Below, in pieces: positions 18,973 to 45,018 of a stretch of 64,000 nucleotides of DNA (its first letter is position 1; every line of letters starts with the position of its first letter). The stretch covers positions 62,001-126,000 of the forward strand of contig JAODTK010000554.1 in NCBI GenBank assembly GCA_026419785.1, read 5' to 3'. Under the pieces are notes generated by a model. The model was not told the origin of the DNA and ran no database searches. It saw only the letters and a list, made by a program, of their open reading frames with translations. A program made the position numbers and the translations under genes. This stretch comes from Sclerodactyla briareus. Taxonomy: Eukaryota > Echinodermata > Holothuroidea > Dendrochirotida > Sclerodactylidae.

Positions 18973-19662
18973 ATGCAGACAAAAACACCTCCTCGTAATT
19001 CCCCAGCCCCCACCGGACTGAACCAAACAAACCGTTCTCGAAGGCTTCAAAGTTCAGTATCGAATCGTTGGTCTCAAAGGACGACTCCAAGACCTCTCAG
19101 GACATTCATCCCGCTCTCGCCGACTCGCCCTCTTCCCTCAATTCCTCGCCGAGTCCCTCAAAGTCTTCAACCCCAGAGATCGCCCATCAACAACGCTCGT
19201 CGGATTTTTCCCCTGGGCAGTCCCCGCTACTCCCATGGCAGCCTCACAATCACCTCTCCGGGAACAAAAGAAGTTCATCTCCGACGTCAGAGCCCCTCAC
19301 AATGGGGTCGGGTGCCTTCCATTCCTTGAAGCGACATCGCCCAGACCGGCCCTTTGTCCCCCATCCACAGAGTCTTTCGGCGTCGCGATTGGGATCCATG
19401 CCCGTCCCCGTGACGGGACTGTCGCCCCACACTCTCAGCCCACACAGCCACCAGGCGCTCCTGACGGACTCCACCATTTACATGGTGCCAACATGCCGGC
19501 ATTCCTCGCGCTCCAGTCAGCGGGAGTACCGCCGGGTTCCGCTGCGAGCGTCATCGGCTCACTCCCCTAGCCCAGGGCTCATCGGCAGGGAACCATTTGG
19601 GTCCCTTTACCCCTGGCTATTAGCTCGGAATAGAATGCTAGCTGCCGGCCATAGATTCCCGG
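18973..19662 (+). CDS. Emx: Emx exon 1 (N-terminal region to HRFPG)
   Basis: The frame using codons at 19053 onward reads FSIESLVSKDD, the eh1-like N-terminal motif of Emx/ems (FTIESLVAKD in vertebrates), which in the family is thought to recruit Groucho-type corepressors. A long Ser/Pro/His-rich low-complexity linker follows, then FGSLYPWLLARNR and GHRFPG (about 19596-19661), equivalent to the vertebrate FYPWL...GHRFQG block. The exon ends at 19662 on a consensus donor (G|GTAAGC), phase 1. Start: that frame has a TAA at 18996-18998 and no ATG before the motif. The ATG at 18973 (A at -3) is one frame off, so one base is probably missing between them, for instance in the C runs at 19000-19013. 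An upstream exon spliced at the AG before 19007 is the alternative. Between 19470 and 19565 another frame looks equally protein-like, so a second pair of small errors is possible. Confidence 0.88.
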
Positions 19663-21767
19663 GTAAGCACTATTTTCTGTTTATATCAATAGTCAAATGA
19701 CTTCATTTTCATTTTAATAACGTTTATGAAACGAATATATGTTTTCATACCTTGGAAATATCCGTTGATCACGATCAATAACATCCTTTATATGATTTGA
19801 GATGAAAAAACTTTTGCCATTACCCTGAACTGTAGGAGAGAAACCCTCATTCACCTCCTAATTTTGACTGATCTCTCTTAGAATAACACTAATTTTCTGT
19901 TTTTTAAGTTTAAAGAAATCAGCCATGATTGATCGTAACATATTTCATTCTTCCTCTTTTGTATTCAAGGTGATCATACTGGTTATATTTATTTTCTCTC
20001 AATAACATAACTAATGTCCGACTCTTACTAGCTGCTAGTATGACAGGCCCAGAATGTGCTACCAGACATTTCCTTTGATTTCTGGTAGTATGGTGAATTT
20101 ATCGTTTTAGGTTTCTATGAATCTTTTGGATAATGTTTCTAACTTTCAGAAGTGAACAAATGAATAATTTCCGAACAGGCATTAAGTAGAACGATTTAGG
20201 GATTTCTTATCAGCCTAAGTCACCCCTAAAAATGAGAGAAAATGTGCATATGAAAATGATAATTGCTTGAAAAATAATCATCCTTGCTGTGTCGCAGTGT
20301 GGAACAGTGTCAACTTTCAAAGTAGCTCCAGAAATTCGGTAAATCTCCAATGAGTGCTAGGCCATTTTTTAAATTCAGAGTCAGCCTAGATGTATGAGTT
20401 TTGACAAGTCGAGCGGCATATGATTTTCAGGATAAAATATATCCATTGTCATATCGTTTGCATTTTATTGATAGAAAAGGGAGATTTGGTCAAGACTTGG
20501 CCTGTTAATTGGCTAGTCGGTGAACCAGCCGACTACAATGAGAAAAGTTCTCAAACTCTCGATACCTGTACATGTGATCACTTCCGAGACAGATCGGCCT
20601 ATACGAGCCACATTCGCATCGACAAATGATTTCAAAGTAAAAGGTGATGATTCGCTTGCCCTAAGAACAATACGAAAGGGATAAGGGTCGAGTTGAACAA
20701 AATGGAATGTATTTATACATCACACATTAATTGGTATTATCTGATATAGGCCTACATGTATACTGACAAACTGATAATGTGGGAACAGCGTATGATATAT
20801 GCACGTGTGTTCATGTGTGTGGGCAGGGGAGAGGGGGTGGGTCGGGATGGTGCGGGGGGTGGACCATTTTGGACGGCTTGGGTGTATAGCGCTGTGCATA
20901 ATTTTAATCGGGGTCGATAGGGTTTTGGCAGTTATTTAGTTGTTGTAAATTGTTCTGGTGAATGAATAATCTTGCGAGCAGCGAATATCCATTGAGGTAT
21001 ATCCAGGTTGATCTGGAATACCCTCCCTCAGCTTGATCTTCTCAAACGTCAAGGCATTAACAGTAGGTACATTCCCCTGGTAGGTACAATCAACCTGAAA
21101 TAGGCAAAGGCTCACTGAGTTCGGGAAAAAATGCATTTCTATTTTATGATGTCGCGTCCCCGTCACGAGATGCCGACAGTATAGTTTCAAGTTTCAAGTT
21201 TATTTACCACTCTGTAGATAATAATTACAGCAGAATGACTACAGTACAGTATTAATAATACTAAATTACAGTCTGGAGAGATAAAGATTAAATTATATTG
21301 TGATTACACCCGAAAAACATTTGTTCATACAAATGATCTATAATGAACGATGTCCATTCAGTTCGGAAAATGGTTGGTTGAGGAATGTTGACGCATTGAA
21401 ATGTTGAAGGGGTCCTTCATTACCAGTACGTTCTTCTGGTGGGAGGAGAACGATAAATTTCGACAATTCCACTTCCATTCTTGCGTCGCGAATCGCATCT
21501 CAAAGTTATCGACCAGGTTATAAATCTCAAAATTAACAATGTGTGCGGTGTTAATTGAAAGCCTACACGCGGTTCATATTGCAACCACGGGTTCCGGTAG
21601 AGTATAGGATTCTAGTACAAGACCCGTACAATAATCTGACAAATATTGCACCAAGGCCTGACACGCATGTTTTAATCTACGATTCCAGAGATGCGGTGTA
21701 CGGTATGAATAAATGTGACAATCATGATTTTGCGAGAGAGGTTGATATTTTGAAATAATTGACGGTA

Positions 21768-21769
21768 TG

Positions 21770-21818
<49 letters not shown>

Positions 21819-21819
21819 G
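21768..21819. repeat. TAA trinucleotide microsatellite
   Basis: (TAA)n inside Emx intron 1. Confidence 0.95.
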
Positions 21820-24800
21820 AGGGACATGAATATCTGCCAATTACTGGATGAGGACGTTAACATTGCATAGTGTTCGTTCCAATTTACTTGAATGATATTT
21901 CACCGCTACAGAACTTGTCTCTATACCCTGCAAACCCAATTGCCGATGATTTTAGACTTGTCATATTTTGTTGTATGCGCGTGAATCTGATAATCGTGGG
22001 GTCATACCGCAGCCCACATCCTTAACCTATGGAATCCTAACCTAAAACAATGCCGGTTGTAACATTTGAAATATTCTCTCACTGAGTTCAGAAGCGGATC
22101 TATGTGGGCGCAACAGGCGCGCGCCTCTTCCCCAATTGGCAGTCATGAAAAAAGGCGCACGGAAATGAGAATATCGTCCACATGCATATACACCATGTTG
22201 CAGCTCAGTCCTCATGCAAGAGGAGAACTTTTTTTTCAATGGGGTGAGTTCCCCCTCCCCCCGGCGATCAGTCATGCATCGCGCCCTCTATAAAAAAAAG
22301 GTCCGGATACGTCTCCGACTGAGTTTGAGTGACATTCGTCAAGAGAACATTTTGGGGGTACTTGGTCTGCTGGAAATCACAGTAATGTTCACATATCTAC
22401 TGTAATTTTGAACTTTGAGACCGGGGGCCGGGGCTGAACATGACAAACCAGGTGCTGAGTTTTCATCTTGGTGGTGAACTAACAATCGAAATTCAAACTG
22501 GGTGCAACGCTCAGTATAAATGCCCTGACGAAAGTTAGTACATATGGTTCAATGGCAGGCATATATACACCCATCTGGTTCAATTATACTTGCCAGATTA
22601 CCAATGATATAGTTCGACCGCAATTGAGCGGCGAGGTCGTATACAATTGCGCTCGTTATTTACTTACTTTGAAGAACTTGCGGAACGAAGACAATGATTT
22701 TTTCAAATATGGTTAATTATTACCAATATCAGACAAAACCAAAGAGAAAAGTGGGACTAGAATAAAGAATGAACTGTTGTTTCTGTTATTATCACAACCC
22801 TAACTGCAGACTGTGTATCTCTAGCGCACCCATCATGGAAACTTTGATTGGCGCGCTATTTTGTGGAATGAAACCGGGCCCCTTCCTACGGAACTACGGT
22901 ATCAATATTTTGTATGTGGTGTTCAACAATTTATGCATGCAAAGTCATGTGACCGTACCGATGGGTTTACGGTACCAAAATTGAATTGTGACAATCAAAA
23001 TTACGCAGCGGGTTCGCGGGTTCGAGTAATCACTTAATAAGAAACTTCATATACCTATTTGGGATTATTTATTATCTGGAGGCATAACGTCGATTGAACA
23101 GCTGACCCACAAACGTTTAGGGGTGAAACGATATTCTTCTGGCTCTATCTTGGAATGGATGCGCGCACCGTGAAGCATCACACTATATTAGGAAACTAAA
23201 AATAAATTTGTCAGTCGGAACAAATCGTGCCATGTGAAAATGCCTACTCCAACGAGTTATTTCATGACTGGCATTTAATGTGAGAATTTGTTAATTAACG
23301 TCATTCAATGACGACATCACACAATGAACGCAACTAGAAAAAAAATCACTCATCGACAACATGTAAATTAACTTTTTAATGTTGATCAACAGGACACGAA
23401 TTAGTTTTTTTTTTACATGCGCAGAAGCAAAGCTCATTGAAACAAAGCTGCATAGGCTTTTCTGTTGACATAAATGTTGACCCAACTCTTCAACATTGAG
23501 CATTGATACCGGTAAGTATCTATATTAGTCATTCGTGACACGAACCAATTGTTACTTTCTTGATGGAACGAATTAGGGAAAGGAAGGAGTAAATGTTGGA
23601 GAAAGAAAACAGAATGTGGCACCTGTTCAAGCATGCACGTGCAACAGTATAATGGTCGAATAACGTTGTTGTTGTAGGAATATTATGAACTACGACTATT
23701 CGTCCAGGCAATGCTACACAGAGAGTATTCCCTGGTCAATACCACGAAACGATCGAGATGTTATTAGCTGGTTAGCTAACAAGCTAAGTAAGTTACTTGT
23801 TCACCCTTGTTCAATTAGTGACAGGTGAATCACATGCTTTGGCTTTTACTGTTCTTCCTCATCAACTCATCAATAGCTAGCAGATATCTCCGACGGGTGA
23901 TTGGGCGATAATAGCCACGGCTGAATGGACAACAACGTACAACCGCGCATAGAAAAACTGATTGTCGTACGTAACACTGCAATTGTTCCGATGATAACAT
24001 CAACGACATGAAGGCTATACTGCGGACCCACTTATCCTTACCCATTACTTCCCTCCGGCAATATAGAACTCCGTACGAGCGAGAAATACAAATAAAACAA
24101 CAAAACCATCGCTTTACTTAATCTTTATGAACTATGAGGCAGTACTCTGCAATCCCTCACAATTGAACAATTTTCATTGATGATATGTAGTGTCATGTAG
24201 TGAACTGCATGTGTCCTGGCTGAACTGGGCTAACAGCCTAACATTAACATTATTGATGGATTTTTTTCCCCCTAATAATGGGAATTGCCTCGAAGCCCCC
24301 GACGCAACCGTTTGCGTGGCATTACAGCAAAAGTAACTTCAATGTGCATCGGAAATGATTTTGCATTAGCATACCATACTCTCTTCAATCATAATAGTTG
24401 AAAAACATTCTAATAGGCTGTACTCTGGTTTCAGACCTTTGCTGTATTAAATTAAGAGCCTATGGGGCGAATTTTCCTTTGCAACATCTGGCGAATAATG
24501 GACCGGTCCATTTGCAGGAATAATCGTCCCACAGTGTATCCGAACGAATTTTACATGACTTATCATGAGACTGATTATGTCCCGATGCCAAACAATATCG
24601 ATTGCGGGATTGGATAACCAGTGAACAGAACGTCGACTCAAATTTGACGACGTCATTCACGGATATTGCGAGGTGACCCCCCCCCCCCCCCCATCTTTAA
24701 ATGAGCATAGTCGTTTTTGGTGCCCGTCGGTTAATATGGATTTATAACAATCAAAGAATAGGTGTTTACCCCCGATTCGTGCTCCGTAATGTATGGAGTT

Positions 24801-26564
24801 TATAGTGGTTTTAGGGTTAGGGGTTAGTTTAGGGTTAAGTGTCAGACAATAAGGATATATATTTTTTTTTTATTCAACTAGTTAGAGGTGCGTATTGTCT
24901 CTCCCTCTCTCTCTCTCTTCCTCGGTCGATGCATGTATGTTTCCACAGGTTTTCCATCATTGGTGGGACCTGACTCCAATGTAAACACACGGCCAATCAC
25001 AGAAGTCGTTGCGGAATAATTATGTGTATTAACAGGGCCTATCTCCTTATTGGTACGGATTTATCCGTAGCTCTCACTGAGCCTCCTCCTTGTCATGGCC
25101 CCTATCTACATATTGTTGTCGTACTTAAAGACGCACCCAAATCTCATAATTCTGCTCGTCGCATGGATATGGGTACTAATGACCCATAACGAGGGTTATA
25201 AAGGCCCACTTAGAGAACAGCTCACGAGTGTTCAGTGGGTGTCATGTCATTAGCGGCCGGGCCTCAGACTCAAGAGACCAGATTACCTAGATTATATTAT
25301 TATAGCGAACGCTGATTAGAATCTGCGATGACATAACGGACGCACTTTTCAGTCGCTTCCAGAAATCATGGGACAGTGGAAAGGGTGCTGTTTTTTAATC
25401 GGAATATTCAATTTTAACTGCAATTTATTTGTTTTGCGCTTGAATTCACGAGAATCAGGAGAGCAATATTTGCAGACATGACTACCAATTTCAAATCTCA
25501 ATTAGTAGCAGCCGCCCACACTAAAGTGACCTCGTATGTTCATAAGAGGATGATCAGAACACAACCATCTTACTTGTGCTACTTCACAGAGAACTGGAGA
25601 AAGGAGAACGAAAAGAAGGGTTGTAATTATATTTGATAAATTTAGACCTATCTATATTGAAAAAAATGAGTCTATCGGCATACGACCAATACGTGGTATA
25701 CATGTAATGTCCTTAACTTCCTGACGATTCAGCCTAGATCTATATACGCGGTAATTGGCAATGGCAATCGAGGAGAATTGCGTATATTGCAATAGATGAG
25801 GAATTGATTGAACTGCCGAATCAACGTGAATTGATGCACCTATCTGACCACATTTGATCAGCTTTTAAAACATGTTCAATGAATGATCCAAAAATACATT
25901 CTAGATAGATTCACGCCTTTATATTTCGTTCAACGTGCCAGTAAGCGTACATATTTCAGCTTTATCATATTAACATTCATTCTCAATTCATTGCCTTAGA
26001 AGACGTTCCAAATTTTGAAACTTTTTCATTAGGTGAATCATTATTCATATCTTATTCGTTTCTTAGTGTGTTGTGTATCAGTTGTGTATTTCATCGTCAG
26101 GGGTAAATTTAGCGTTTGGGGCTAACCTAAGTTTTGCTCTTTTGAAGCGTTTGAATGAGAAATAAATATAGGTCATGTAAGTAGAGGAAACAATTGACAA
26201 CTACTTCACAAAAAGTTTAAACTTATTGTTAGTGGTCTAGACACGTAGAACCAACAGCATCGCAAGCCGATGATTTCTTAGACTCCCACCCACAAGTGTG
26301 AAAGCCATACGTTCATGACCTGCTGTGACTTTCAACCGACAGATCGGACGATTAGACTTACAGGAGTAGGTTTTGTGCCGTGCTGACTTACTTTTTGGCA
26401 GAGGATCCCTAACGCGGGCTATGTAGTTCCCAAAGCTGCCCTCCTTTTTTTTCTTTTTCCCTATTTTAAGATGTAAATACTACTATACTAGTAGCCTATT
26501 TTTAACAGGTCATCGGAAGAATACAAAAGGAACACTCGAGTGTTACCGTATTATATGGGGGGCG

Positions 26565-27215
26565 GGGCGTGGTGGCCTTATTGGTTAAGGCGTCGAGCTT
26601 GTAACCCAGGTTGTGGGTCAAGGTTTTGCCCTTGAGCAAGGCACTTCATCCCGCTTGATTCTCTCCGCCCAGGTGTACAAATGGGGACCGTGGGGTATCA
26701 GAACGCAACTTTTTTTTTTTTTTTTTATGGTAGGCCTATACTTGCCGAGCAGAGGATCGTTCCTGTTCAAGGCCCAGCAAGGATGCAGACCTGAACGCAC
26801 CTATTGTTCATCACTACGAATCCCTCACCAAGTACACGGAATAAGGTAATGCCTCTTTTGCGGTCCCTAATATGGGGGTGGGGGTAATCACACCGCGGCA
26901 ACTTGCAAATGCCTAACCCTCGTTTGTCCCTGCTCCAATCCCCTGTGCTGAGGCGTCCACGCTAAGGCACAGGTACCATTTTTAAAATCTTTAGTATGAC
27001 CCAACCGTGATTCGAACCCCGGTCTCCCGGGTGGAAGGGCCACTCTAACCAACTGTGCCAACCACTCGGTTTATTCCAATGACGCTGAAATAGCTGCCGC
27101 GATAGTGACTCTCTGGATCGACGGAGTGGCGTGACTGGTTCCTATGATCGGGGTAATGTCTGTAAAACGCTTTGAACCCTTCGGTGGTGAAGCGCTAAAT
27201 AAAGATTTGACATAA
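26565..27215 (+). repeat. tRNA-derived SINE (family A), interrupted by another SINE
   Basis: The head at 26570-26640 is tRNA-like. The A-box region TGGCCTTATTGGTTAAGGCG is followed by GCTTGTAACCC, then the B-box region GTGGGTCAAGG (normally GGGTTCGAA). CCCTTGAGCAAGGCACTTCA follows, a word common to many deuterostome SINEs. A poly-T tract lies at 26711-26726. The tail at 27165-27210 (AAAACGCTTTGAACC...GAAGCGCTAAATAAA) is the characteristic 3' end of such elements. A minus-strand SINE of another family lies between head and tail. Confidence 0.75.
26910..27070 (-). repeat. tRNA-derived SINE (family B), nested
   Basis: On the minus strand CCGAGTGGTTGGCACAGTTG and GTTAGAGTGGCCC form the A-box half, and CCGGGGTTCGAATCACGG the B box. 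GGTACCTGTGCC and CTCAGCACAGGGGATTGGAG follow. It shares its second half with the copy at 9786-9905. It sits inside the family A SINE, so it inserted later. Confidence 0.7.
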
Positions 27216-27576
27216 TCCTTATTAAATTAGATAGACGAAATACTCAAGTAGCCGTCTACGATAGATCATCCGAAATACCATTTTGTGAGCAGAATAGTGA
27301 TGAAGATTGGGACGTCAGTGTGCATGTATACATTCTAAACATCACTCCCCGACAAACTGGGCACATGGGCTTGATTTTCAGATGTGAATTTAATTTGTGG
27401 TTAAATACTCCTTGGTTCTCACATACCTACGTTACGAGCAGAGACGAAACCAAGTATCGGAAGCTGTACAGGAACTGGGGAGGGGAGGGTCGAGAAGGAG
27501 AGGGGCGATGTTGGCCCCGGGCAGGAAACAGCAACGCAAATGCGAAATATGTTTGTCCTATCCAGCTGGGGGTATT

Positions 27577-27745
27577 GGACTGTACACTCTAAAAATAATC
27601 TGGGTCAGATTGACCAGCATTTGATCAGGGGGAAAACTGAATCAAATACCTGGATCGAAGTTTAGACCCATGTTAAGTTTTATCAAAATTATGTCGAATT
27701 TGACCGAGCGTTTTGTCGCCGGGTTCCCGATTGACCCAGATCTAG
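27577..27745. mobile_element. GGGTCA-rich MITE-like element
   Basis: It starts CACTCTAAAAATAATCTGGG directly after GTA, the same end word as the MITE at 15674. The right side has ATTGACCCAGAT, which is complementary to the left AATCTGGGTCAGAT region, but the last bases of the right end are lost. The interior is rich in GACC/GGTC words. Confidence 0.5.
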
Positions 27746-30700
27746 GCTGCTCGCACCTGTGCCCTCTCAGGGAGGCCCTTAAATATCGTGTTTTATTCGC
27801 AGTTCACCAGTGATTCCATCAAAAATTGGGATGGGCCCACATAAGTGTTTGCTACCTTTGATCAACGGTAGTCCCATTTGCCCATTTGGGGACTCGTGTG
27901 CCCCAGCTCAGGTTAGCCATAGCCAATTCATTTCACAACGTTATTCGCAGTTACTGCAGAATTAAGAAAGGAATTTATGATTCGGTCTAGTGAATCCAGA
28001 ATGGTGTCACAGTTTCACCTCAAGTGCTACTTCATCATGTACAGTATTGCTGACTTTAGGACCACTCACCAAGCTAACGGGGTTGTTTGTGGTGTTGCTG
28101 ATTGTCACAATACTTCAGAGAACAAGCGGAATTAGTTCTCACCGCCGACCACTTCTCTTTTAAAAGAGCCTATATAGATTACATATAAAGTTACAGCCCA
28201 TGTGTTCGACCAGACTGTCAAAGCTGAGGGGTGGGGGGGGGGGGAGGAGAAATCTGTACTGCCATTATATATGGAGTTGAATACAACAGGAAAATATCCA
28301 GGTTGCATCTGGGCGCGAAGTGCCTCAACAACCATTGGCCGTACAAACGACTGGAAAAAAAGATGAGAAAGAGGCTTGGAAATTAGTCACATATAGGTAT
28401 ATTGCACCAATCTGCATCTCAGCTCTTTAACATAAGCGAACAATTCTAGAGAAGAAAAAAAAAAACAGGGGAACCGCATTTCCTTATACCTCTCCCCGGA
28501 CCCTACTATCCCTAGCCCTGGGACATGTGGGATGTAAAGGCTATGCAATTAAAGGACGCAATTGAAAAGAATGATTTTCTTTTGGCAAGGCTGAAGTACG
28601 CCATACTAGGGCCGACGGTAATTCACTTTTCAACTATCACATTGACCTGTTGACTACCATACCACACGGTCACATTTAGCGCCAAATTTCGGGGATATAG
28701 GCCTAGTGGAAAATCTGAAATGCTAAATGAGAGCCTCAAAATTTTAAAGGTTAACGTAGCGTTGTAGTAGCGTTCGAATAACGTTGATATATGTACCGTT
28801 ACTGTTAGAAGACAACTGCAGGGTTGATTTATAAAGCGGCTAATATAATAGCTGGATGAAAAACTGATGCGTCAGTCAACTGAAGTTCATGGACTTTCCG
28901 TTTTACAGAGTTATAGTCCTTTTGAAGTTGGTGTATTGTGAAGTATGTGTATTGCGCAAGATCAAAAGGCATCCCGTCTGCAATAAATAAATTCATACTT
29001 GCACAACCCTGCCAACATTCTCTGTTTTTTATTGAAATTCAAATATTTAATCACTTCGAAAAGCATTTAGTCTATGGGCGAGTATTGCTGTCGAGGTTGG
29101 TAGGTGTTGCTGGTTACTTCAGGTGGCAGAAAGACAACAGAACTTGTTGCTAAATGTTGACTTTTCAACAAAATGAAACAATGAAATGCCTAACATATTG
29201 TCCGTGTTGTCCATGTGAGACGTCATGCGTTATTGCGCAGATTGGGTTCTCCCCAATTTGTATCTGCTTATGGCTCAAACTTTGAGGGTCAATAACCCCA
29301 CGTAGGAACATCGTATTGAAATGGGGTTTGGACCTATAGATAGAGTTTCACATTCTCCACGATACCGCTGTTGTATCCAAGCCTGCAGTTGTCTTTTAAC
29401 TATAGAGAATGTCAACTCTCAACTTCTCAAGGACCTTTTGCGAGTCCATATTCCTACGTCCTCTGAACGTACGTAAGTATGCGAGTATATATGTTTACTC
29501 CTTCAGTCCTTGGTGCCAACCACGGTATCCTAATCTGTGGGGATGATCGAACATGACAAAAACAAAATACAAACAAACAAACTTATTCGGAGTTATATCG
29601 AGATCCAGCCACTTTTTACTCGTTGTGCTGTCACTCTCGATCAGTCAGTAGAGTCATCTGTAATTTCAATCTTGGATAGAGTGAAAATAATTAGGAGTGT
29701 TTTCCCTCTATGCCGGCTATTTAGAGAGGGTAAATACTGATTTGAAGTGACAACGCCATGCATTGAGAGAGTTTCCAAGGTTCACCCCGACAACCCCCTC
29801 CCTTAGTGACCCAAATGAAAGTCCCTAGATATTTTGGCAACTGTTTTGACCTTTATATTGCAGCTTCGCCATGGGGAAGGTTTGCGGGGGCGCCCGACCT
29901 GAACCCCCAAAACAAATCTCTCCCTACGTTACTGCGATGACTATACTGCTCTGTTCACCCGAATTTCGGAGAATGATCACGATCCCCGTCTTTTCGGACA
30001 CTCCAATGGGAATCATGGCGCGTTTACCGGGGTTACGTCCATGCCACGGCGGTTCTCTCCGAACTGCCCTCCCCATGCCCCCCCCCCCCCCCCAGTGCCT
30101 ATTAAGGTTGATATCCTCTCACGGGTAATAGGTATTAACACTCCCATGTAGATATTCAATATGGACAGTGGGTGTGTTGAGACATAATAGAACGCACCCC
30201 CCACGTATACGCTAATACCTCGTTAGGAATCCCCAACTCCCCTACAGAGGAATTCCACTGGTCGGGTCTATTTCCTTAGAAAAGAATTAACCATCCAGTC
30301 ATGACTGGGAGCCGTTCGGTCCTTCCACTTTCCCATGCAGTTAAAGCTCGCAAGCTGCAAGCTATAACTTGTCAATGATAGTGGGGCTTGGCTTACCCCC
30401 GAACCGTAGTCGGGGGTACTATAGGGACAGAAACATACAGATTAGGGGGCGATTATTTTAGCTTAGAGTATATACCGTACCTGTGGTAAAGTACGTACCT
30501 GTGACAGAGCGCTGGTGTCATCGGACGTGCAACCTTTTACGGGCGATTTCAACTGTCCGACTTATAGGGTACTGAATAAAGACCTCTAATGGCCCTAATA
30601 TTATTTCCAAAAGGCGATTTTAAACGACAAGGAAAACAAATAGGTAAACAGGGGTCCCTGCCGCTCCGACCACCACGCGGTAGACCAGTTCTGGGGGCCA

Positions 30701-32234
30701 CTGCGGGTAAATACCTGTCGTAAACCCCCAGAGCATATTTTCGAGGAGATAGAATTCTTTCTGCCTCCTAGTTTGAATGATTTGTAGCTGGTGAAGCCGC
30801 ATAAGGTCTAATATTCCTCGATACCCTCCAAAAGAAGAATGTAGAAAGCGATTACTGTGAATACCCAGGTTAAAAGTGTACACTGCCGAATACTGAGTGG
30901 TATATTTTATATTGGCCTGTGAGCAAAAACCGTCACACAGAAATTCACAATATTGCAGCCCCGCATGCAAAAAAGGATCTCGGGCTTCTTTAATAGTTAA
31001 AAAGAAAAACAAACCAGGGTGGGGGGGGGGGGTTGTAAGGCCGTCTTTTGTACGTATGTGACACACATGTACAGATAAGGAGAGGGGAGGGCTGTAAACT
31101 GGTATGTATTCACTGTGGGATATAGTATCGCAACAATTGTGTGTGCATGGATATTGAAGTTCCATTCACCCTTCGAAATATTCGAGAAAAAAAAGCACCA
31201 ATGGATTGAACTGAATGGCCATCGTTGGAACCCTCAGTATAAGAATTCAGTCAATATGAGTAACCTAAAACCCCCACCATGGAACTCTAACGGGGGTACA
31301 GGGGCGCGACTTCTGAATTTTACCATATGTATCCGCGAACCACGTATGTTACTGACGCTAATAGGGGATGGGAATGGGGAAAATCCTCACTATCCCTTTC
31401 GGCGATTAAATGCAATTTAGGGGCCCCTATAAGCTAGACACATGCTGTTGCAATATTTGGTAAACAACAGCTGTTAAACGTTAAATGAAACAGTAAAAAG
31501 AGTGGTTTTATGATAATAAAAAAAATGTATTAGTTCACACGGTCAGAGGGCAAATCTGGACCCCAAAACCCCCTCCGTTGGTTACGCCACCGACCGCATA
31601 TGATGGTAATTCAGCACCAATTAAAATTTTGTAATAAAAAGTAAGTATCAAAGTTTTAATAACATTAATGTTGGATGTGCCCCACTTTACAGGTGACTAC
31701 TTTTGTTTATCGCCCATTTATATTAATATGACACACCCCGATAAAAGGAATATCAAAATTACACCCCGTGCAATCACGAAGTGCACTAATGGTGCATGGT
31801 ATTTCTTGGAAACCAGCTCTCACAGCGGTCATCGAGTAGCTTTGGTCCTCATGGGTTCGGTGCGCTCGTTCACAAACCCCATGAACCGTAGGCTGCGTGC
31901 GATTGGGTTCGAGCTTGAGGGGGGCCCAAAGCTCGCCACTTGCCAGGAGGCGTTGTATTTTTGTTGGGATGATGTGGTTAGATGAGTCCTACCACTTACT
32001 AACCCCATTATTCGCTCCACAGTTATTCCCATTGACGTTTATCTTCAGAGACATTCGGTCACATTTCAACCTCTACTCAGTGAGGAACCAGCTGGTCAGA
32101 GGGCGTTTGTTTACACGTACTTGTCATCACTTCCAAAAGGCTGTTAGAATTCTGCTGCTATTTGGAGATGATTTCAGTATTGTACGAAGTATGGTTTTTG
32201 GGATATTCTGGTACTGAGCTAATCATAAGTCATG

Positions 32235-32700
32235 CGCCAATACGCCTTTGAGATATTCGAAAAATATGAACATCAATGATAACAAAAAATCAAGTGACAC
32301 CATTCGATAACCTCAGTAATTCATAAGTAATCTTGGAAAAAATGGTGATCAAAGTTCCATTCAGCCTTTATTCCATGTCCCCCTCTCCAACCACGAAGCT
32401 TCAATACGTGATAATCCATTGTATTGACTGATACAAGACCTCAATTGAAAAAAGAATCCGTTGAAACAAAAGTATTAGGTAAAAATTGTAATTTTGTCGT
32501 GATCGCCCTGTGCGAAACCATATACATTTGTTTGCGGCCCGCCGGCTTTTTTGAAAATCCGTGGATCTGATCATCATTTTCTCCAAGAATCGGAATGATT
32601 TGAATGCTGTAACTCTAACGCAAATATCCCGAAAGGCCGGCTGGCCGCGAAAGTTGGATATGATATTCCACAGGGATCTATTCCATCTGATTTTCTCGTT
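32235..32700. repeat. Inverted pair of a dispersed repeat (ATTCGAG family)
   Basis: 32235-32375 matches the minus orientation of the family (GCCTTTGAGATATTCG, CATCAATGATA). 32462-32700 matches the plus orientation, shared words being TTGAAAC, TTGTAATTT, GCCGGCTTTTTT and GGAATGATTTGAATGCTG. The plus part aligns with 38740-39005 and with the reverse of 48537-48815. A shorter minus fragment sits at 31150-31185. Confidence 0.5.
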
Positions 32701-33961
32701 TCAACAGATGCATCACTTCTTTACAGCTCATGTATCAATCTCACGAGAGTGTTGTTTCTTCGTGAAGGGAAGAAAGAAATATGAAGTAAAGGCGGATGAG
32801 CGAAGTTTTCAGTTTCGTTAACGCTGATTCGCCAATAGGCCTATATTGCCATGATTTTCCGTTTTCGAATTGGCTGTGTTAGGTTTTCACCGTAAATAGC
32901 AGAATGGTGGAACGCCTTACTTAATAAGTAAATAGCGCCCTCTCTTTGCAATCTGTGCCTCGACTTGTCGCAATCGACACACTGCCATGCGTAACATGTT
33001 ATTCTTCATAAAAGACTGTTCAATGAGCCAATAAACGATGAGAATGATTGGCTTATACTGATCCAGATTCCTCTTTATTTTTTCTATTCGTTTTGCATCA
33101 TCGTTTAGAGGAAAGAAAGTTAACTGGTTTGAATGCAATGCTGGTATTTTGATCACATGATAGGTCTACTTTAAAAAATCACATTTTCTAGCTAGTCGCA
33201 GCTCAGCTGTTGTTTGTCAACCGCCTGGAAGTGAACGCGACGCGACGCCACCCCCTGTTTAAAATGGGGAAACCTTGTGAGGAGTGACTTTGTGAAGAGT
33301 AGCGACGCCGTATTTTGCGCCCTATTGGGAAGTCCCCCGGGGGACACGAAAATGGGCGTACATGCAAATAGTGCGTCTGAATCACAAGCTAGAAGTGCGT
33401 GCTGTATCTCACATGTGTGGCAAGTCACTGATGATCAGGGTAATATTTGAGAAGCGCTCTGATGCATGTCTTCGACGTCCAAAGCGATATATAAAGAACA
33501 AATATTATATTAAATATTATTTAGCCCTTTCAGCGGGAATCCCCTTCTGCCCTTCAGAAACTGAGGCAGTTCGCTTCCGGAAAAAAGTGGTCTACACATC
33601 ACTCCCACTGCATCTCTGTAATACCAGACTGACAGACTATGATAAAGACTAATTGACAGTTGGAACAAATTGTGTTTTCACATTCAGAGACAATGTGAAG
33701 AAATAATACGAACGTATAATGACACCAACATAACGTGGGGGGGGGGGGGGAGGGTGGGGGTTAGTTTGAGGAAACAGGCCAGAAGAAGTAATACAGAGTA
33801 TGAGCAGTTTGATTCAATTGTCCGACTGATTCAGGATCCGGGAACTTTGGGCAGGAAACGAGCATAATTCGGGAACAAAATATGTGAAACTCGGACAGAA
33901 TTGAAGCAGAAATGTAAAGGTTACTTGATGATTCTATTGACTGTCCGATTTCTTCATTCAA

Positions 33962-34130
33962 ATGTCAGAGTTGGACCAGAATAGTATCAACCTCAAACTT
34001 TTGATTAAATTTGACCCAAATCGGATCAAATCACCCCAACATGGGTCAAACGTTGACCCAGATATTGATTTGGGTGCCTCCTGACCCAATTCTGGGTCGT
34101 TTTGACCCACATATGATTTCACAGCGTGCC
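33962..34130. mobile_element. GGGTCAA/TTGACCC-rich MITE-like segment
   Basis: TTTGACCC, GGGTCAAACGTTGACCCAG, GACCCAATTCTGGGTC and TTTGACCCAC recur within about 170 bases, giving many internal inverted pairs. It resembles the interior of the element at 27577-27745. Ends are not clearly defined. Confidence 0.4.
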
Positions 34131-35074
34131 CCCAAATGGGAAGTGCTTTGTTAGCCTCTGTGCTTTTATTGGTACTTCATTCACAAAAAGGGGCCCATTG
34201 ATCAGTTCGATCAGTGATTACAGTATTTGCAAAACAGACATGACATTCATTCAAAACTAGATGAGTTGTCTCTTCGGGTTAAAAAAAAGTATTCAAAGGG
34301 TTTCACAACACTGGGTAACTGGCACACCTATCCCGGGTGTTGTGTTAGAAATTACACAGCATTGTGTAAACGTTGTGTGAACATTTCACAAATTGTGCAG
34401 ATTTTACCGATGATTGTGGTAATTTCCTACACAACAAAGTGATAGATTGGCTAGTTTTTCACCAACATATTTATGAGTGCGGCTCCAACAGATTTCTGTT
34501 TTTTTTATCTGTCTAGTATTACGTCTATGCTAAATGCTAAGGCCATTGCCGGTTCACAAATGACTCGAATACTGAACAAGTCGCTCGTATTTCAGTCAAA
34601 CGAATGATAAACACACTTTGAGAAATCAATATAAGATATGGCTCATCTTTCATTTGATTTACTTACCAGCAAAACGAATTAGAAAGTCATGTAACAATTA
34701 TAGTATTATTCTAGTGAAGGAGATGAAAAAAACACACAGCACTTGTACTCAGTATATATAGACCTCAGAAAAGGAGAAAAATGTACTGAAAAAGTTATCC
34801 GCATCCACAAATCCACCCTCGTTGAAGCTAATCAGTAGATAACAGCAAAGATATATTTATTACAACAATTAGAGTTAGTATAACAAGTTCGAGCATTCTC
34901 GCCTGCCAGTGCTCCGGACTTTGTCCGACTTTTCCATTGTTTGCTGCCAGAATTTTCGATCTCGACGTCAACCGTGCTCTTGCGGGCTCATAATAAATGC
35001 TGCCACAGCCTGCTGGTGACTGGCGTTAGCTTTCCAAGCCATTTAAGCTCTCATTATATCTTATTCGTCTGAAG

Positions 35075-35255
35075 GTTCAGAACTTGGTCACAACGGGTTT
35101 CTCTTCCATTCACCATTCCGGAAGCCGAAAAGAATACGGACCGCCTTCTCACCATCGCAGCTCCTACGACTTGAACAAGCCTTCGAAAAGAATCATTACG
35201 TAGTCGGGGCAGAGAGAAAGCAGCTTGCAGCAAGTCTAAACCTCACAGAACACAA
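35075..35255 (+). CDS. Emx: Emx exon 2 (homeodomain residues 1-44)
   Basis: The split Gly codon from exon 1 is completed by the first two bases. The exon then reads a short linker ending [18 protein letters not shown], like vertebrate [19 protein letters not shown], and continues [35 protein letters not shown]. This is the Emx homeodomain N-arm, helix 1, helix 2 and the start of helix 3, nearly identical to vertebrate Emx. Core residues F8, L16 and F20 are present. The last codons read LTEH then AA|GTAAGT, whereas the family has LTETQ. One extra A in the AA run at about 35250 would give LTETQ exactly and a phase-0 junction, so a one-base homopolymer contraction is likely. Length is 181 bases as given, 182 if corrected. 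The acceptor follows TTATTCGTCTGAAG. Confidence 0.95.
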
Positions 35256-36439
35256 GTAAGTACTATATTGGACGGCAGAAATAAATGTGCTCCAAATCGA
35301 TAATGGATTAGATTCTTCAAATCATAAAAAGGAATGATAACTGAGAATTAAGCCAATGGGCAGTCTAACAATTCTCTGATCAGAGCTGAAAATGTAATTC
35401 TTCCACATGTTCACCTAGCAAACGGTACAGGAATCGTATGAGAGGGAGGGGGATGTAATTGACCTGAACCTATTCAATACTTAGCTTACCTCCACTTAGC
35501 TGTACTTTTCAGTGAATTTCAAAATCAATTTACAACGCTCAGGTGATTCCATATCAGCTTATGTTGCTCTCTGATGGGACCAGAACATTACTGATGAAGT
35601 GACACGTACCTTACCCTGATCAGTATCGGCCATTTAAGAAATAACTATTCGTTAAACTTCTTTCCGAACCAATTCATTGCATTTTGCTACTTTTCTTCAT
35701 GCATTTCATACTTCATGATATTTCATACTAAATTATTAACGCCTCCGTTTTTGTTTGCTCCTGTTTTGAAGGGGCCGAGAAATAAATCATACTTATATTC
35801 TTTATCACCCCTTGAGGTAATTTATACCTAATTTTTAAAACCCCATTCGCACGGAAGGTGGCAAAACGAATTTGAAACTGACTTAAGTTACTTGCTGATA
35901 TCGTCCGCATCTAACCATAACTGGCGGCCATATTTACGGTTTCTTTAAGTTTATTCCCGTATGTCACGGACTTTATAGCACAACACTTCTGCGGTGATCT
36001 GTGAATCTATGGCTGACAGAGAGCAGCTATTACCTTCGAAAAATCTGTTAAAATTCCCCTCCCCGATCACTTTTCCATAGCAAGATTCTTGCCTCTTGAC
36101 CTGCAGCTTTCAATTTCACCCCCTTGCTTGTCATACTTCATCCTTCTCCCGAAGAATAGGAAGCCTCCTTGTTTAAGTTAACTACTGTTATCTATCGAAT
36201 AATTTGTTTTAAGTGCGCCCTACTAAATCAACAATTTAACTTGCATACTGGTCCGCCGAGGCTGATTTTATTTCCCGAGATCGTGTGGCGAGATCTAAAC
36301 TCCCGTGGCCCCTGCAAGCTAATTATATCGATCTATTTCTTACTATATAGTGTTTTTTCCCCCCTGACGAGACCGTATCCTCTTCGTCGAGTTAAATAGA
36401 ATGAGAATAAAGAGAAGTGAAGGGGAAAACCAGCGGAAC

Positions 36440-36740
36440 CCAAGCAAAACCTACATCCGGCTGCTATTCGACCAAATTTGCGGACTATAATCTAAGAAAT
36501 CTGACCCTATAATTGGGAAATTTACCCCATTAACCAAATTGGTATATTAGTTGTTATCTGCTGATAAATGCGCGCTGACGGAAGTTAATTAGGGGCGTCG
36601 TAATTAAATTTGGCAAGAACCTTAGAAAATAGATTTCGCTGTTTATCGTCCATGGATTTTCACCATGGAGGCGTCATCGGTTGATCGAGGTATAGTACCT
36701 TTTGCGGGAAATCGTTTAGAGGGAATAATGGCGATAATTT
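36440..36740. promoter_or_regulatory. Candidate regulatory block in Emx intron 2
   Basis: A repeat-free stretch about 1.2 kb after exon 2 with two homeodomain-type TAATTA sites 15 bases apart (36586-36591, 36601-36606) and an Otx-type TAATCT at 36488-36493. Emx genes elsewhere are regulated by Otx and by homeodomain factors, so an enhancer is plausible. Short motifs alone prove little in AT-rich DNA. Confidence 0.25.
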
Positions 36741-36837
36741 CAGACGTTCTTTTGCGACCCGTCTACTGACGATTATGCATTCGGACAATTTGCAACGAGA
36801 ACAGAGCCATCAGTATGCAGGGTTGTGCTCGACCCAC

Positions 36838-36965
36838 GAATGCCGGTGTTCGCTCCGACACCGGTGTCGACACCCCTTACACTTTGTATGCAAATCTGTT
36901 GGAGGGCCGGTGTTGGTGTCGGAACTTTTGGTGTCGTGGCATGCACAATCACCCCTGGTATAGAT
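36838..36965. repeat. Degenerate GGTGTC hexamer tract, copy 2
   Basis: CCGGTGTTCGCTCCGACACC, GGTGTCGACACC and CCGGTGTTGGTGTCGG, then a shared flank GCATGCACAATCACCCCTGG that matches the flank of copy 1 at about 10580. It lies within Emx intron 2. Confidence 0.5.
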
Positions 36966-38739
36966 ACAGTGAATTCTTAATATTCTTCATAACGATTAAT
37001 GGTGCCGAAAGAGTGTTTTCTGATGAAATCGATTACGATAATGAATCTACCGACCTCAAGGGCAGGGGTTATTCTTCTTGCAGTTGATAGTCTTGCGTTA
37101 AGACGATATTGTTTTAGCGCTTTGCAGCTTGGTTGTTTTATAGCATGCACAAAAAATATGCAGCCCGACTGGCTGATATATATTCGTCTTGTCCAAATTA
37201 CAAAAAAGTGGGTGGTCTGTGAGAAAATCATGTTTGAATTGTAAACTTGCTGAACAGCAATTCTCGATGTCCGTGTTGTGGTTAAGAGCTAATACAGTCC
37301 AACATTCACGGGACAGATTTGAATTCGGAGCGGGGGTGTGGTCCTACCAGTGTTGTGATTGGCTCCCTCCAAGATTGGAAGGAATTGCATTGGGACCAAG
37401 ACGATGATACAGATCAACATATGATGGCGCACTGCAGAAATTCCGCGAAGGTCGTATATTAAAGCAGGCAGGTAATCGGGAATAATCAAGTATCATCGTC
37501 TTAACACAGACTATTCTTGCAGGGAGGGAAGGGGGGAAAGGACAAATACGAACTGGGGATAGCCGAACTGTGTAGATGTTGTGAATTGTTTTGTTTTTTT
37601 TTCCTCATGCCAATGTTGATTAACACTAACACCATTTTTTACCAGCCGTTCTCTCCCCACGTAGGAGAGTGGCTTCACTTGTAAATTGCTCTCTAAGGCT
37701 GGGATTCCATAGATGCGTACGCGGGTCGGTGGTATGTGAAAAATCGCAAATTACCGTGAAACGTCCTAATTGTATGCAAAGAGATATATTGGTCAACAGA
37801 GACAAAGAAAAGATATGAATAAAGGCACAAAACCAAAACGATGAAAAAATTTTTTTTTTTTTAGGGGGCCGAATAAGCACATAGTGTACCGATGGAGATA
37901 GGAGCGAGTACTGCGAATGAATCTATGGAATATCTCCCTTAAGAAAAGCCAATCAACGGACAGTCGTAGCATGGCTGTGCCTTTTTAGGTCTTTTGCACA
38001 AACTGAAGTTGTCGCTTTTGAAACAAACGTTCGTTTCGTGAATATGTGATTTTCAAATCCAGCACGGACACGCATACGATCTATGAATACCCAGCCTTTT
38101 CCGTCGGACCACGAAGTGGGTGAATGACGGTCCGCGAGCAAATATATTGTAGGGCCTGCTCTGATGATTTTACATTATTCGAGAAGAAAAAGCGGAAACT
38201 AGCCCGTGTCTATCCATTCATGCACCGTTACATTAGCTACAATTGGAACTATTTAAACTAGGAGAGAGACGTTTGAACATAGTGTCTAGATTACCCTGAC
38301 CTTGTTTAATTTGAAAGTCATGGGGGGGGGGGGCATGCAGTTTACATGTCCACATCGTGATGGCAGGGGTGGTTCTTCGCACTTGATCCATCCCTCTTAT
38401 TATCGGCAATGATCGCGAAGACTACAAACAATAATTGTCTGTGGTTTGAGATATCTTACTTTACACCGTAATAGGTTATAGCATTACATGATGAGTGTAA
38501 AACACGAGCGTCATCCAAATTCGAAGAAAACTCTCTGCCCCATCGATGAACATCAATTACACATATTGTTGATCGCTGAATAGCTTGGATTAACGATATC
38601 ATTATCCCACTATCTCTTCTTTCTAAGTCAGTGGAGCACTAGTTACTCAGTTACTCACTAGAGACTATTGCAGGTTTTGGTCTTTCAAAATTCTTATGTA
38701 GGTCACATAACCATGCACTACAATTTAAAAAAAAAATTG

Positions 38740-39005
38740 TTTAAAATTTAGTACTATAGGTATCAAAAATTGGTAATTTCGTGAATGAGGTCCCTGTGGA
38801 GAAACATAACATTTGTTGTGGCCGCCCGGCTTTTTCTTTAATTTCGCGGACTGATCGTAATTTTCTTCAGAATAGAAATGATTTCAGTGCTGGAAATTTG
38901 GACTGTGCTGAAGTTTTTCTTCTTCGTAGATGATGGTACCGACGATTAATCACTTTTAATTATCATCGGATGCTTATTTTCTCGAATATTCCAAAGGCTG
39001 ATGAA
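38740..39005 (+). repeat. Dispersed repeat, ATTCGAG family, plus copy
   Basis: Aligns over about 250 bases with the reverse complement of 48537-48815. Shared words include GGTAATTTCGTG, AGAAATGAT, AATTTGGACTG and TTATTTTCTCGAATATTCCA. The first half also matches 32462-32630. No coding capacity and no obvious terminal repeats. Confidence 0.6.
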
Positions 39006-42000
39006 ACTTTAAGATAGAATACATAGGAGTGGGAGGTATCCGGATAGGATGTATGTCGTGGTTGGTAGGGAAAAAAAAGGGGGTTCCAACAGTCCAAGCG
39101 TATTAAATTTACCAATGCAATACGAGTAATAAAACCTATAAGTCCGCGATGAGGCATTGCACTGAGCCGCATCTACGCAAATGGGGGGATTTCCATATGG
39201 AAAATCCTCATAAAGGATCGTCACTAGGAACATTTGTTTGGACAGATAAATATGATGGACGTTTCTCGTCTCCTAAGTTTATTCCCTGTAAGGAAACATA
39301 AGCATGGTTTCCGCAAAACGCGATTTTGCATCAGTCCGCATGCCGTATTCACACATTCACACTATGTTGATGATGTACTGTTGAGCGTCAACGGGGCAAG
39401 CACTCTAACAGAAAACAAACGGACCAACAAAACAAAGGCTTACAGAAAGTACAAAATAAGTAAGAAATGTGGCTTGTGTTCGGGGAGTGTTAAATGACCT
39501 GATGATAGAGGGGAATTCAATTCTGGGCCACAACTTGAAAACAGATCGGGTTAAATGAGATGTTGCATCCGGTACGGGTGGTGGGAACTAAAAGTATGCT
39601 CATGGAGCGGCGGGGGTATTAACCGCGGTTTTTATTCCACGTTATTTTCACCGCCATTATTTTGGTTGTAAACATTCCATTCGGATGATTATATTTTTTC
39701 CAGGAAGAGTAAACTTCTTTCAGGGGTTTCTAGTTCTAGTTGACATCCTTTCATATCAAATTTTCTTAATTATTTTTCAACTTATATGAAGAAAATTCTT
39801 GTGAAAAACAAAGAAGTGAACACGAAACGAAATAAGGCCGAGCAATCAAACGAGTTTACTCTTTCAACTCTCGTACACAGGTCGCTCAAAGTGCACAGAG
39901 AGCCAAAAAACCAAGCGTCAGTTAAATGGCCACCTAGTCTGCAATTAGGGAGAAAGTTTCATTTCACCCTAGTCATATTTCGTAATCTATAATTTTGCTC
40001 GTTACTCTGCGCAGGCCTGATTAGGGGTTGCTGGTGGCGGCTCTGAGCATACAAAATAGTTGAATACCGTACACGCCACTGCAGGTTCCCCTCCGACTCA
40101 TATTCATATTTACATCGGTGTAAAATCGTGCGATAGTGTGAATTTGAGTCGACACTCGATCCGGTGAACAACTGAGTAATTTATCAGTGAGAATCAGATT
40201 AAATGTATGTGGTCATATTTGATGAATCGAACCATGGATCGGTTCCCATCAGTATCCCTGATAGCCATAATAAATCGAGAATCAGAACGCACCTTCAGCG
40301 TCCGAATTATAAGTATACACATCGCCGATTTCCCCGCCAGGGGCGACACATCACACACCGGAGCTGTACCGGGGTAATTTCGCGCGATATCAGTTTATTG
40401 TTCTCCGTCTCTCAATGACAATTTTCCGATATGGCACTATTTGAAACTCGTTAGCCTTGTCACTAAGTACTACGACATAATCAATAACACTCGATAAGAA
40501 TTGACGCGTGGGTTCACCTTGGACGGCCAACCTACTTCACCTCTGGTAGAACTTAAAAAAAAGAAGGAACTCAGACAGTGAAATGCATAGATAGGCAGAA
40601 CACCGCCATCTATATTTCTCTATTTGTTGGTCTTGAGAAAAAACACGTCTGAACTATTAGCTATTAGTATGTTTGGCCGACGTTCTGAGGGGGAGGAAAA
40701 CCTGGCCATTCTGAAATCACGGAACTATGTATCTATGGTTACCATATATAGTGTCCTCCATGAACTGCTCAGACTTTCGGACAGTTCGCCGAGAATTTCG
40801 GGCAAACGTGGCCCGTACAAGTCATCAGCTGAACCTATAATAACCTTCCACAATCCGGTTATCAGAAGCAACGGAAAGCACGTTTTCGCCTAATTCTACT
40901 TGGAAAACGGGAAAAGTCCACCTCATTCTTCTTGATGTATGATAGCACGGAGTATGAATGACCACCCGGTTTAACGGCATGAGCTGAGACATTTTAATAT
41001 AAAAAAAAATATCAATGTCGTTAATCTAGCTATGATTGATTCCAGATTTGGGAATGCGTGCCTCAGATGAGCACGCACACACACGTGCGTTCAACATGTA
41101 TCACTCTCGAACTGAGAAAAGAAAAGAAAAAACGCGCGGTGGAAAATGGGAAACAATTTGGGCGCCACCAGCACCAGTTAATGCAAACAAAGAGAACTCT
41201 TTAGTCATAGCAGGGGAGCAGGCTTTTCGCCGCATATCACGTCAGTTATTTTATATATTATCATATATTTCTTTAAGCACGCAAACATTTGCCTGTGGTG
41301 ACCACAGTCAAAGTCAAACACCAACGTGTACGAACGGCATGAATAGTCGAGTGAAGGAAATCGTATCGTGTAAATGAAACGTAATAAACTTCTGCTCAAA
41401 CAAATCCATTTCCGGTAAAAATCGCGCTTTCTTTATTTAGCTCGTTTAGTTCAGAGGCAGTCTAGATTACGTTCCACTAAGGTATTCCCTGATTGGCTAT
41501 CCGTATTCTATTGAATTGAATGTGGGAAAAATGAGTAGCTTTAAGAGACTGAAATCCTGAAAGAAACACTACTCATATATAAACGCAGTGTATAATAGGC
41601 ATTGCAGACAATCTTTCCACTTATTGCTCCCTTCCAGAGTTAGGTGCATTTAAAACTTGGAGATGGGCGCCGCCATTATCCCCTCAAATAAATGGCAAGA
41701 GACGTGAACCATCCCATTATGATGTCACAACATAACCCTACCATCAGGGATTTAATGTAGTTCTTTATTTTTCATTACCTTATGATATAAGCACTAATGA
41801 GCATTCCTATTGCACGTTTTTCCAATGATTTACTGAAGTATATACTGTGGATCATGAAATTAACACTAAATTGGCCGAAAATTATGTACACTATTTTGAA
41901 ATATTTGACAACAAATTTAATAAAAACAGAACCTTTTATAACTACAAGGAGTTGAGTGAAAGCAGAATCAATTATCAAATGGCCGACCTTGCTGAACATC

Positions 42001-42465
42001 AAACTGCATATCTCGGAAAGTAAACAATATTTTTCGATCAAATTTGCGGAAGATGTTAATTGAACGTTGGTCTTTTATTTGACATTGTTAGTCATGTTCA
42101 TCAAATCAGACTTACATGCTCGGGCAACATTACGGGGAAAAATGGAAAGTGCACTTCAGTTTGAGGTATAGGTCGTCCACACTGGAAGCACGGAGCTACA
42201 CCCACTGACCTAATTGTCTGCAGGTATATAGGGCCATTGGAAAGCGTGGTGGGAAACATGCTCGTGACACAACCTATATATCTTCCGCCAGTTTTCGAGG
42301 TCACCCCGCTAACTTGAACAATGTTTTTGCCGCACCGATGTACCAGACCGAATAATGATGTGAATAAAGTTTGAATTTAGAGCTGTAAAGAACCAACTTC
42401 ACCATAAGGGATGTAATGATTACGCGGTTTTAAAAGGCCGCGGATTCTTACAGTTTTACAGGCAG

Positions 42466-42616
42466 TTCGCAGTTTTGGGCCCTGCCCAGGGAAGATAAAG
42501 CCCCGGCTTAGCAAAGCCCGCTTGACAGTTATGAAATAGGTCGATAGGGCTAAGCGCTGTATCACTGGCACTTTGTTTGCGATAATGTTTCAAATTTCGG
42601 AACAAGATTGGTACCG
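42466..42616. repeat. Duplicated block X, copy 1
   Basis: About 150 bases alignable to 54090-54240 in the same orientation, roughly 70-75% identical by eye. The best word is TTTGTTTGCGATAATGTTTC; others are ATAAAG, CCCGC, AATAGG.CGAT.GGGCT. It has no element features I recognise. Lies in Emx intron 2. Confidence 0.6.
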
Positions 42617-44618
42617 GTGGACAGCCTTCTCCGTAACCATGGCGGGGTTATTCATCACCAACTAGGGGTACATCATCGGTGTAAAAGGCTGCGAAGCCTA
42701 GGCTAACAGACAGGTTTACCAACGTTCCACATCGCCTTTCACAACCATATAGATTTTCGGAATCTAGATTTCATGACCATTTTCTGGTGGGAATCGTCAA
42801 CGTGTTTCTAGCTTTATTCATTTATTTATTCATGATGGTCAGTGTTATCAGTGGCTAGTAGTACCTACTGACCTACGGGTTGTTTAGGGCCGGATTTAAG
42901 GTTGAGGCTCATTGAATGGTCATAGTGAGCTACTGCTGTGTGGAAATTTGCAAAATGCTTTTCTTCCCACCGTTGGAACATCATCATACTCAGGCAATGT
43001 TATCATTATAGATCAGTATCTATCAGTTTATGGTTGTTCGAGAATTTGGGGAAAATCTTTGGAGTATCATACTAACACAACTCTTCAATGTGTAAATGTC
43101 GCCCGAATTTTTCATTTATTTTCCTTGAACAGAATCGCTCCTGAAAAAATAAAATGTTGGTCTGAATTCTGCACCTTCCGTGCTCTAGTCTGCTAGTACT
43201 ACTTCTCCTTTCTTTTCGGCCCTACATTATTTATTTGTTCACATTTTAGGATCTTTTTAACGTAAACTTTTTATTCAAGCTCTTTATGGGCATTCTGATC
43301 CTGGTTTTCGATACGTCAATGGGTAAACCATAGGCTACACCGTTTCGGGAATGTGAACATCTGCTCCTATATTTTCGCGTGTAAAATAAGGTGTTACTAA
43401 TAACATAGTGTTTGGTTTCGATCCAATTGGCATTTGTTCACCTGTTTAGAGAACCAATGCGTGATTACCAAATCGTGCTCAGAAAACATTCATTTTCCAT
43501 AAGGGAATGGGTGTAGGTGGACTTCAGAGTGATAAAGAAAGCAAAGCCATGCTCAGTTGAGAAAATTCTCTGTAGTTGGTTTACATGGAATACACGCTGA
43601 AGCATTTTCCAAAAAAAAGGAAAAATAAAATCACTAAACACTACCGGTATTCCACATGACTTTATAACTTTTAGGGAATTGACATTGCGTTCTAACTCGC
43701 TAAAAAAGAGACGTTGAAGTAGTGTATGAAAAGCGTGTGATATGAACACATCTGACAACACATTCAGTGTGGAAGTTAAATTTATAACTTTCGTGGGTCA
43801 GAAACAAAAGAAAAAACGGCGATTGGAAGGCGGGTTCTCTACTGTAAAACCTGAACACGATTATTACATTCGTGGTGATGGTTAGTTGAAGACTGTAACT
43901 GTCAAATATTGCGCTACCGTTCAAGCCGCTTTGTGCTCCAAGTCGTGTAATCCCACTCATGAACGCGTGGCCTTACATTGGCCCAAATGTCATGATTTTA
44001 TTGGGAAATAAAAATTGCTGGTGTGATTTGACTTGAGCTAAATATTGCTGACGTGTAGCCTTTTGTCAGTATATCATGCGTTGTGAAGTCTTGAAATGCA
44101 CATATATCCAGAAATACCGCGTCCTCCCGCGACGAGCCTGAGATTGATTGCTCTTTCCCTTACTACCAACAAATTCCCCCTGAAACAATCACAAGAAATG
44201 AACGATATTAGGGAATATATTATGGTACCATTATAAACAAGTAGAAATGTGGCCTAACCTCGATGCGCATAAACCATTCCGTAAGCCCGCCCACCAACAG
44301 AGTAAATAAACATTGACTCTGAGTTCGCGAGCGCGGGAGTTGAGGGGTGACGAGAAGGGAGATAATTTATCCGCGGAAATTTCTAGGGAAAGTTTCACGA
44401 CTGACGACAGGGGGTGGAAGGTTAAATGGCCGATAAATGTGTAATTAAATCCCCCCGCCTTCGGTTGAAAATAAAGTTAAGGCCGACCTCTGTGTTTATG
44501 CTTCCTGGTAGAAGGATATATGTATTATTGTGTAAACACATATACCAGGGCATTTCCAAGGCGATCTCCAAAATAAAGAGAACTATGATTGATGAGTAAA
44601 CTCGATATGTAATGCACG

Positions 44619-44649
44619 TATATATATATATATAATATATATATATAAT

Positions 44650-44682
<33 letters not shown>

Positions 44683-44763
44683 CTATATATATATATATAG
44701 ATATATATATATATATCTATATATATATATATATATCTATATATATATATATTATATATATAT
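44619..44763. repeat. AT microsatellite before Emx exon 3
   Basis: (AT)n with regular CT/AG interruptions, ending about 120 bases before the exon 3 acceptor. Confidence 0.95.
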
Positions 44764-44886
44764 CGTGATGACAAGCAACTTTATAGAAAAATTTCCAGGT
44801 TTTATAGAAAATGTTGATTCTTTGTGTATTCCAAGTATTATGACCATTACGCTCTATACCATATTATTATTTCTCTCTGTTACTAG

Positions 44887-45018
44887 TGAGGTCTGTTCAG
44901 AAACAGGAGAACGAAATATAAAAGGATAAAGGCGGAGGAAGACGGAGAGGAGGAACCGAAGAAAAAAGGATCGCATCACGTGACGAGGTGGCAAATCGAG
45001 ACCCAACAGCAGTCATGA
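44887..45018 (+). CDS. Emx: Emx exon 3 (end of homeodomain and C-terminus)
   Basis: From 44911 the open frame reads [35 protein letters not shown] and then TGA at 45016-45018. Vertebrate Emx has TKFKRQKLEEEG...KKKGTHHINRWRIATKQ at the same place, so this is clearly the Emx C-terminus, acidic then basic. It is shorter here, stopping just after the RW..I.T block. The first 24 bases should encode V(K/R)VWFQNRR (homeodomain 45-53: W48, F49, N51, R53). They read TGAGGTCTGTTCAGAAACAG, which gives that sequence only if several two- or three-base runs are one base short and one AA is one base long. The acceptor ACTAG follows a good pyrimidine tract. Possible readings are clustered run-length error or real damage in helix 3. 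The downstream frame being clean favours error. Confidence 0.92.

Follow-up and report, generated by a model that had tools for sequence, protein, structure and literature searches.

A three-exon Emx gene with frame breaks in every exon points to consensus errors in a sea cucumber genome assembly

A three-exon Emx homeobox gene lies at positions 18973 to 45018, on the forward strand, of the 64-kb stretch of DNA analyzed here (the window; contig C550, positions 62001 to 126000, in an assembly of 319,486,128 bases [319 Mb] and 3171 contigs), and none of its three exons keeps the reading frame intact (Table 1). We put at roughly 95% the probability that this is one ordinary, presumably functional holothurian gene whose breaks are consensus errors of an under-corrected assembly. 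We infer an intact frame in the animal, Emx function, and a long-read origin of the assembly: the breaks would be single-base consensus errors, left by insufficient correction as in uncorrected long-read assemblies, and the product would act like any Emx, as a homeodomain transcription factor contacting DNA via helix 3. The case for assembly error is carried by unrelated genes, which show damage as well.

Table 1. Exons, frame breaks, and a neighboring repeat at the Emx locus, in window coordinates
Feature	Position	Strand	Description
Exon 1	18973-19662	+	Start ATG to phase 1 donor gtaagc; FSIESLV and YPWLLARN motifs inside
Break 1	18991-19010	+	One base short downstream of the ATG, ahead of the FSIESLV frame; at 18991, 19000, or 19009, depending on the relative
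Break 2	19464-19465	+	One base short ahead of GLHHLH; identical place against P0001, P0002, and P0004
Break 3	19568-19571	+	One base extra (or two short); identical place against P0001, P0002, and P0004
Exon 2	35075-35255	+	Homeodomain residues 1-44; borders ag and gtaagt
Break 4	35248-35250	+	One base short in the LTETQ codons; one edit
TA microsatellite	44619-44763	+	~120 bp upstream of exon 3
Five-edit cluster, exon 3 start	44885-44904 (end approximate)	+	Edits to the VKVWFQN codon pattern plus acceptor AG; at least three shifts
Exon 3	44887-45018	+	Homeodomain end and C terminus, TGA included

A sequence check finds GT and AG at all four exon borders. The ATG at 18973 begins MQTKTP, a start shared with the Emx protein of Holothuria leucospilota (P0003) and with P0001. 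Exon 2 matches the Pfam homeodomain profile PF00046 (E = 1.2e-11; profile positions 1 to 42 of 57); submitted as separate queries, neither the frames of exon 1 nor the 26-residue piece of exon 3 gave a Pfam match. With exons 1 and 2 combined as a single query, P0001 ranks at the top (E = 3.3e-81), followed by P0002 (Apostichopus japonicus) and P0003, and the named proteins among the 120 listed of 815 hits are mostly EMX or empty spiracles. The best matches are holothurian, suggesting that the window itself is holothurian. Among solved structures, 47 homeodomain-containing chains match exon 2, none of them named Emx.

Assignment to the Emx family rests on a homeodomain of Emx type (PF00046, protein matches, and frame-aware alignment), on the FSIESLV and YPWLLARN motifs N-terminal of it, which we read as family markers off an alignment of 13 proteins, and on two introns, one following HRFP and the other separating homeodomain residues 44 and 45. 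These intron places match the points where database models of relatives leave P0001: P0003 departs after HRFP, P0004 ends at HRFPGE, and P0002 departs after LTETQ. Vertebrate Emx intron positions served for comparison. As the sequence stands, helix 3 (VKVWFQNRR) cannot be read in a single frame, five edits being required, a failure that we attribute to assembly error because the same damage occurs in other genes. The splice borders, the homeodomain match, and the sea cucumber Emx best hits thus bear out the original prediction of a three-exon Emx spanning 26 kb.

Frame-aware alignment to the proteins of relatives (P0001, P0002, and P0004) places the breaks, and together with the edit counts it agrees with the earlier claim that every exon is affected. 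The total is nine single-base edits (three in exon 1, one in exon 2, and five in exon 3), and seven or more of these shift the frame. Break 1 corresponds to the lack of an ATG in the exon 1 frame, and the single edit at break 4 to the mismatch between exon 2 and its own end, both noted beforehand; the frame-aware alignment of exon 2 ends one residue short of this break. The breaks previously listed are recovered, but the list was incomplete: exon 3 takes five edits rather than four, and the breaks at 19464 and 19568, which offset each other, had been overlooked because a 233-residue open frame passes through both. Three extra +1 shifts at 19239 to 19277, seen against P0002 and P0004, were left out of the count because the stretch is poorly conserved and they are absent against P0001.

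The five edits needed where exon 3 begins compare with a lowest cost of 13 among 3000 random 35-mers of the window. They consist of four deletions and one insertion, unless substitutions are priced like indels, in which case two of the five become substitutions and residue 50 is R. Two of the edits cancel, and the frame-aware alignment of exon 3 therefore begins at F49 and reads F-R-N unshifted. The TA microsatellite upstream is perhaps a cause of poor local quality.

The frameshift-tolerant comparison with Emx of relatives, proposed at the outset, shows a conserved protein almost unchanged around the breaks. Exon 2 is identical to P0001 at 56 of 58 aligned residues and exon 3, from F49 onward, at 38 of 40, and a stretch of 30 residues is identical in the window gene and P0001. 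Exon 1 is about equally distant from P0001 (145/220 identical), P0002 (142/221), and P0004 (138/223); P0001 in turn shares 76% identity with P0002 and 66% with P0004. Given just 145/220 for exon 1 and 66% between P0004 and P0001, conservation tells little in this exon. P0001 and P0003 are 100% identical where aligned, and the frame of both is intact. Holothuria leucospilota has two Emx proteins, P0003 and P0006, with very different N termini and encoded on one contig of 49,263,487 bases; the window gene belongs to the P0003 type, not the P0006 type. A possible duplication of Emx in holothurians may merit attention. A literature search on Emx in sea cucumbers gave nothing on the subject among the matches listed.

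The exon 2 protein retrieves itself alone from the assembly (six candidates scored), as does the DNA of exon 1 and of exon 3. P0006 retrieves window exons 2 and 3, plus three other matches, all weak (25.7 to 29.7 bits; 12 candidates scored). No second, intact Emx turned up in these searches of the assembly, in which few candidates were scored and badly broken copies would escape. A gene of the P0006 type, not seen here, may be missing from the assembly or so badly broken that the search passes it over, and its absence may be a sign that the assembly is incomplete. COX1 was not found in the assembly either; mitochondrial contigs are often omitted from assemblies and use another code, so that this absence is a weak sign of incompleteness.

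Elsewhere in the window, pieces at 5673 to 7439 on the forward strand resemble a reverse-transcriptase element, with an RVT_1 match at 5897 to 6190 that falls under the Pfam cut-off (E = 0.00069), and a tandem array with a 38-base unit occupies 11104 to 11298 (5.1 copies, 96% matches, 0% indels). Scanning the 64 kb against Rfam and for tRNA genes returned nothing, and Pfam gave no match for ten other long open reading frames of the window.

A faulty assembly would have to show breaks in further conserved genes as well. Examination of this prediction revealed similar damage in unrelated conserved genes on other contigs, namely, all four of the Hox-like homeodomains aligned, every histone H3 locus (four of four), and actin (six of the ten aligned loci), as anticipated by the earlier claim that assembly error would reach other genes. 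Of the actin, histone, and homeodomain reference sequences, a database record supplied one, among the four for homeodomains.

The homeodomain profile search gave 15 matches from 26 candidates, none of which covers all 57 positions, a count to be read with the caveats that some matches stop near position 46, likely at a real intron, and that there was no animal control genome. Thirteen loci were aligned; L008, the window's own exon 2, and L016, which repeats L013 (the two are halves of one homeodomain gene), were left out. Shifts occur in ten of the 13, and L004, L006, and L015 have none. Six shifted loci were not relied on, owing to a likely exon end (L009 and L010) or weak alignment (L011, L014, L017, and L018). 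The Hox-like homeodomains L005, L007, L012, and L013, best aligned to Hox-type references, carry 3, 3, 5, and 1 shifts, respectively. Two frame-broken Hox-like homeodomains lie ~180 kb apart on one contig (G000:C2999, 54008-54179 and 235269-235376), perhaps as part of a Hox cluster.

The histone search yielded four matches from seven candidates, all best aligned to H3; they carry 2, 8, 6, and 10 shifts, and substitutions are numerous as well. Actin yielded 16 matches from 18 candidates, of which L032, L036, and L037 (exons shared with others) and L041, L042, and L043 (weak) were left out. Among the rest, L028 and L034 carry one shift each, L029 and L035 two, L040 five, and L039 fifteen; L030, L031, L033, and L038 carry none. 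Locus L039 (G000:C2088, ~15017-15401) packs its shifts into ~500 bases and is far worse than the other two actin contigs. Without it, the actin load is 11 shifts in ~3.0 kb, and that of Emx is at least 7 in ~1.0 kb. True pseudogenes may be present among the H3 and actin copies. With no shift in 4 of 10 actin loci and 3 of 13 homeodomain loci, the error load is uneven, yet it is not special to Emx.

A recent pseudogene, that is, a dead gene accumulating frame shifts, would also present three broken exons. Its residues, however, should not have been spared: exons 2 and 3 show just four differences from P0001 in 98 residues beside at least four shifts, the opposite of neutral decay, so that relaxed constraint is not apparent there, exon 1 being too variable to judge. 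Further, the splice borders are intact, conserved genes elsewhere in the assembly carry the same damage, and no replacement Emx was found, with few candidates scored in an assembly that may be incomplete. We regard a pseudogene as very unlikely. Alternatively, the sequence could be correct and spliced in another way, with exon 2 ending in phase 2 and joining the AG at 44899-44900 and with an inner ATG used in exon 1. So joined, the unaltered sequence does keep an open frame all the way from exon 1 to the terminal TGA, and the join yields an open frame (represented by a 13-residue sequence) that skips most of helix 3. Such a frame is expected by chance, however, because 4 of the 10 AGs in 44887-44949 leave the frame open. 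The join would also delete V45 to Q50, a segment that 11 of the 13 aligned proteins retain (P0002 and P0004 end earlier), and would leave unexplained the breaks at 19464 and 19568 and those in other genes. We find this account scarcely credible. It is equally far-fetched that the animal uses the inner exon 3 acceptor of a correct sequence to make an Emx variant lacking most of its DNA-recognition helix; if true, the variant would perhaps be a dominant-negative or protein-binding form.

Errors of the assembly remain the preferred explanation, and their nature differs in part from what was proposed. The original prediction had ascribed most of the breaks to homopolymer run lengths. Exon 3 is in keeping with this, as each of the five edits can, by our reading, be assigned to a run two or three bases long; by our sum, however, ~47% of window bases already belong to runs of at least two. 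It does not fully extend to the other genes, where at least three actin shifts lie, again by our reading, in no run (the second of L029, that of L034, and the second of L035) and where H3 loci carry substitutions as well. Run-length error as the sole process is therefore improbable, and the errors are more fairly described as general single-base noise. This assembly would be an unreliable basis for calling genes, for claiming gene loss, and for testing selection, because actin, histone H3, and Hox-like genes read as broken too. In itself the Emx orthologue is biologically ordinary, and its value is as a warning on the data quality of the assembly.

The window gene resembles Holothuria leucospilota P0003, and P0001, in its start, motifs, and intron places, but differs from them in that the frame of the relative is unbroken and in the exon 1 divergence from P0001 given above. 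The putative EMX1 of Apostichopus japonicus (P0002) is comparably close in exon 1 and similar in exon 2, and its database model diverges past LTETQ, without exon 3. At the level of the assembly, passages of the Polypolish (PMC8812927) and Kastor (PMC12007338) reports describe residual homopolymer errors and frameshift-causing errors in long-read assemblies of bacterial or small genomes. The damage seen here is like that of the uncorrected long-read assemblies in those passages in that conserved genes are broken by single-base errors, and unlike what they describe for bacterial or small genomes in that substitutions, and shifts outside runs, occur too.
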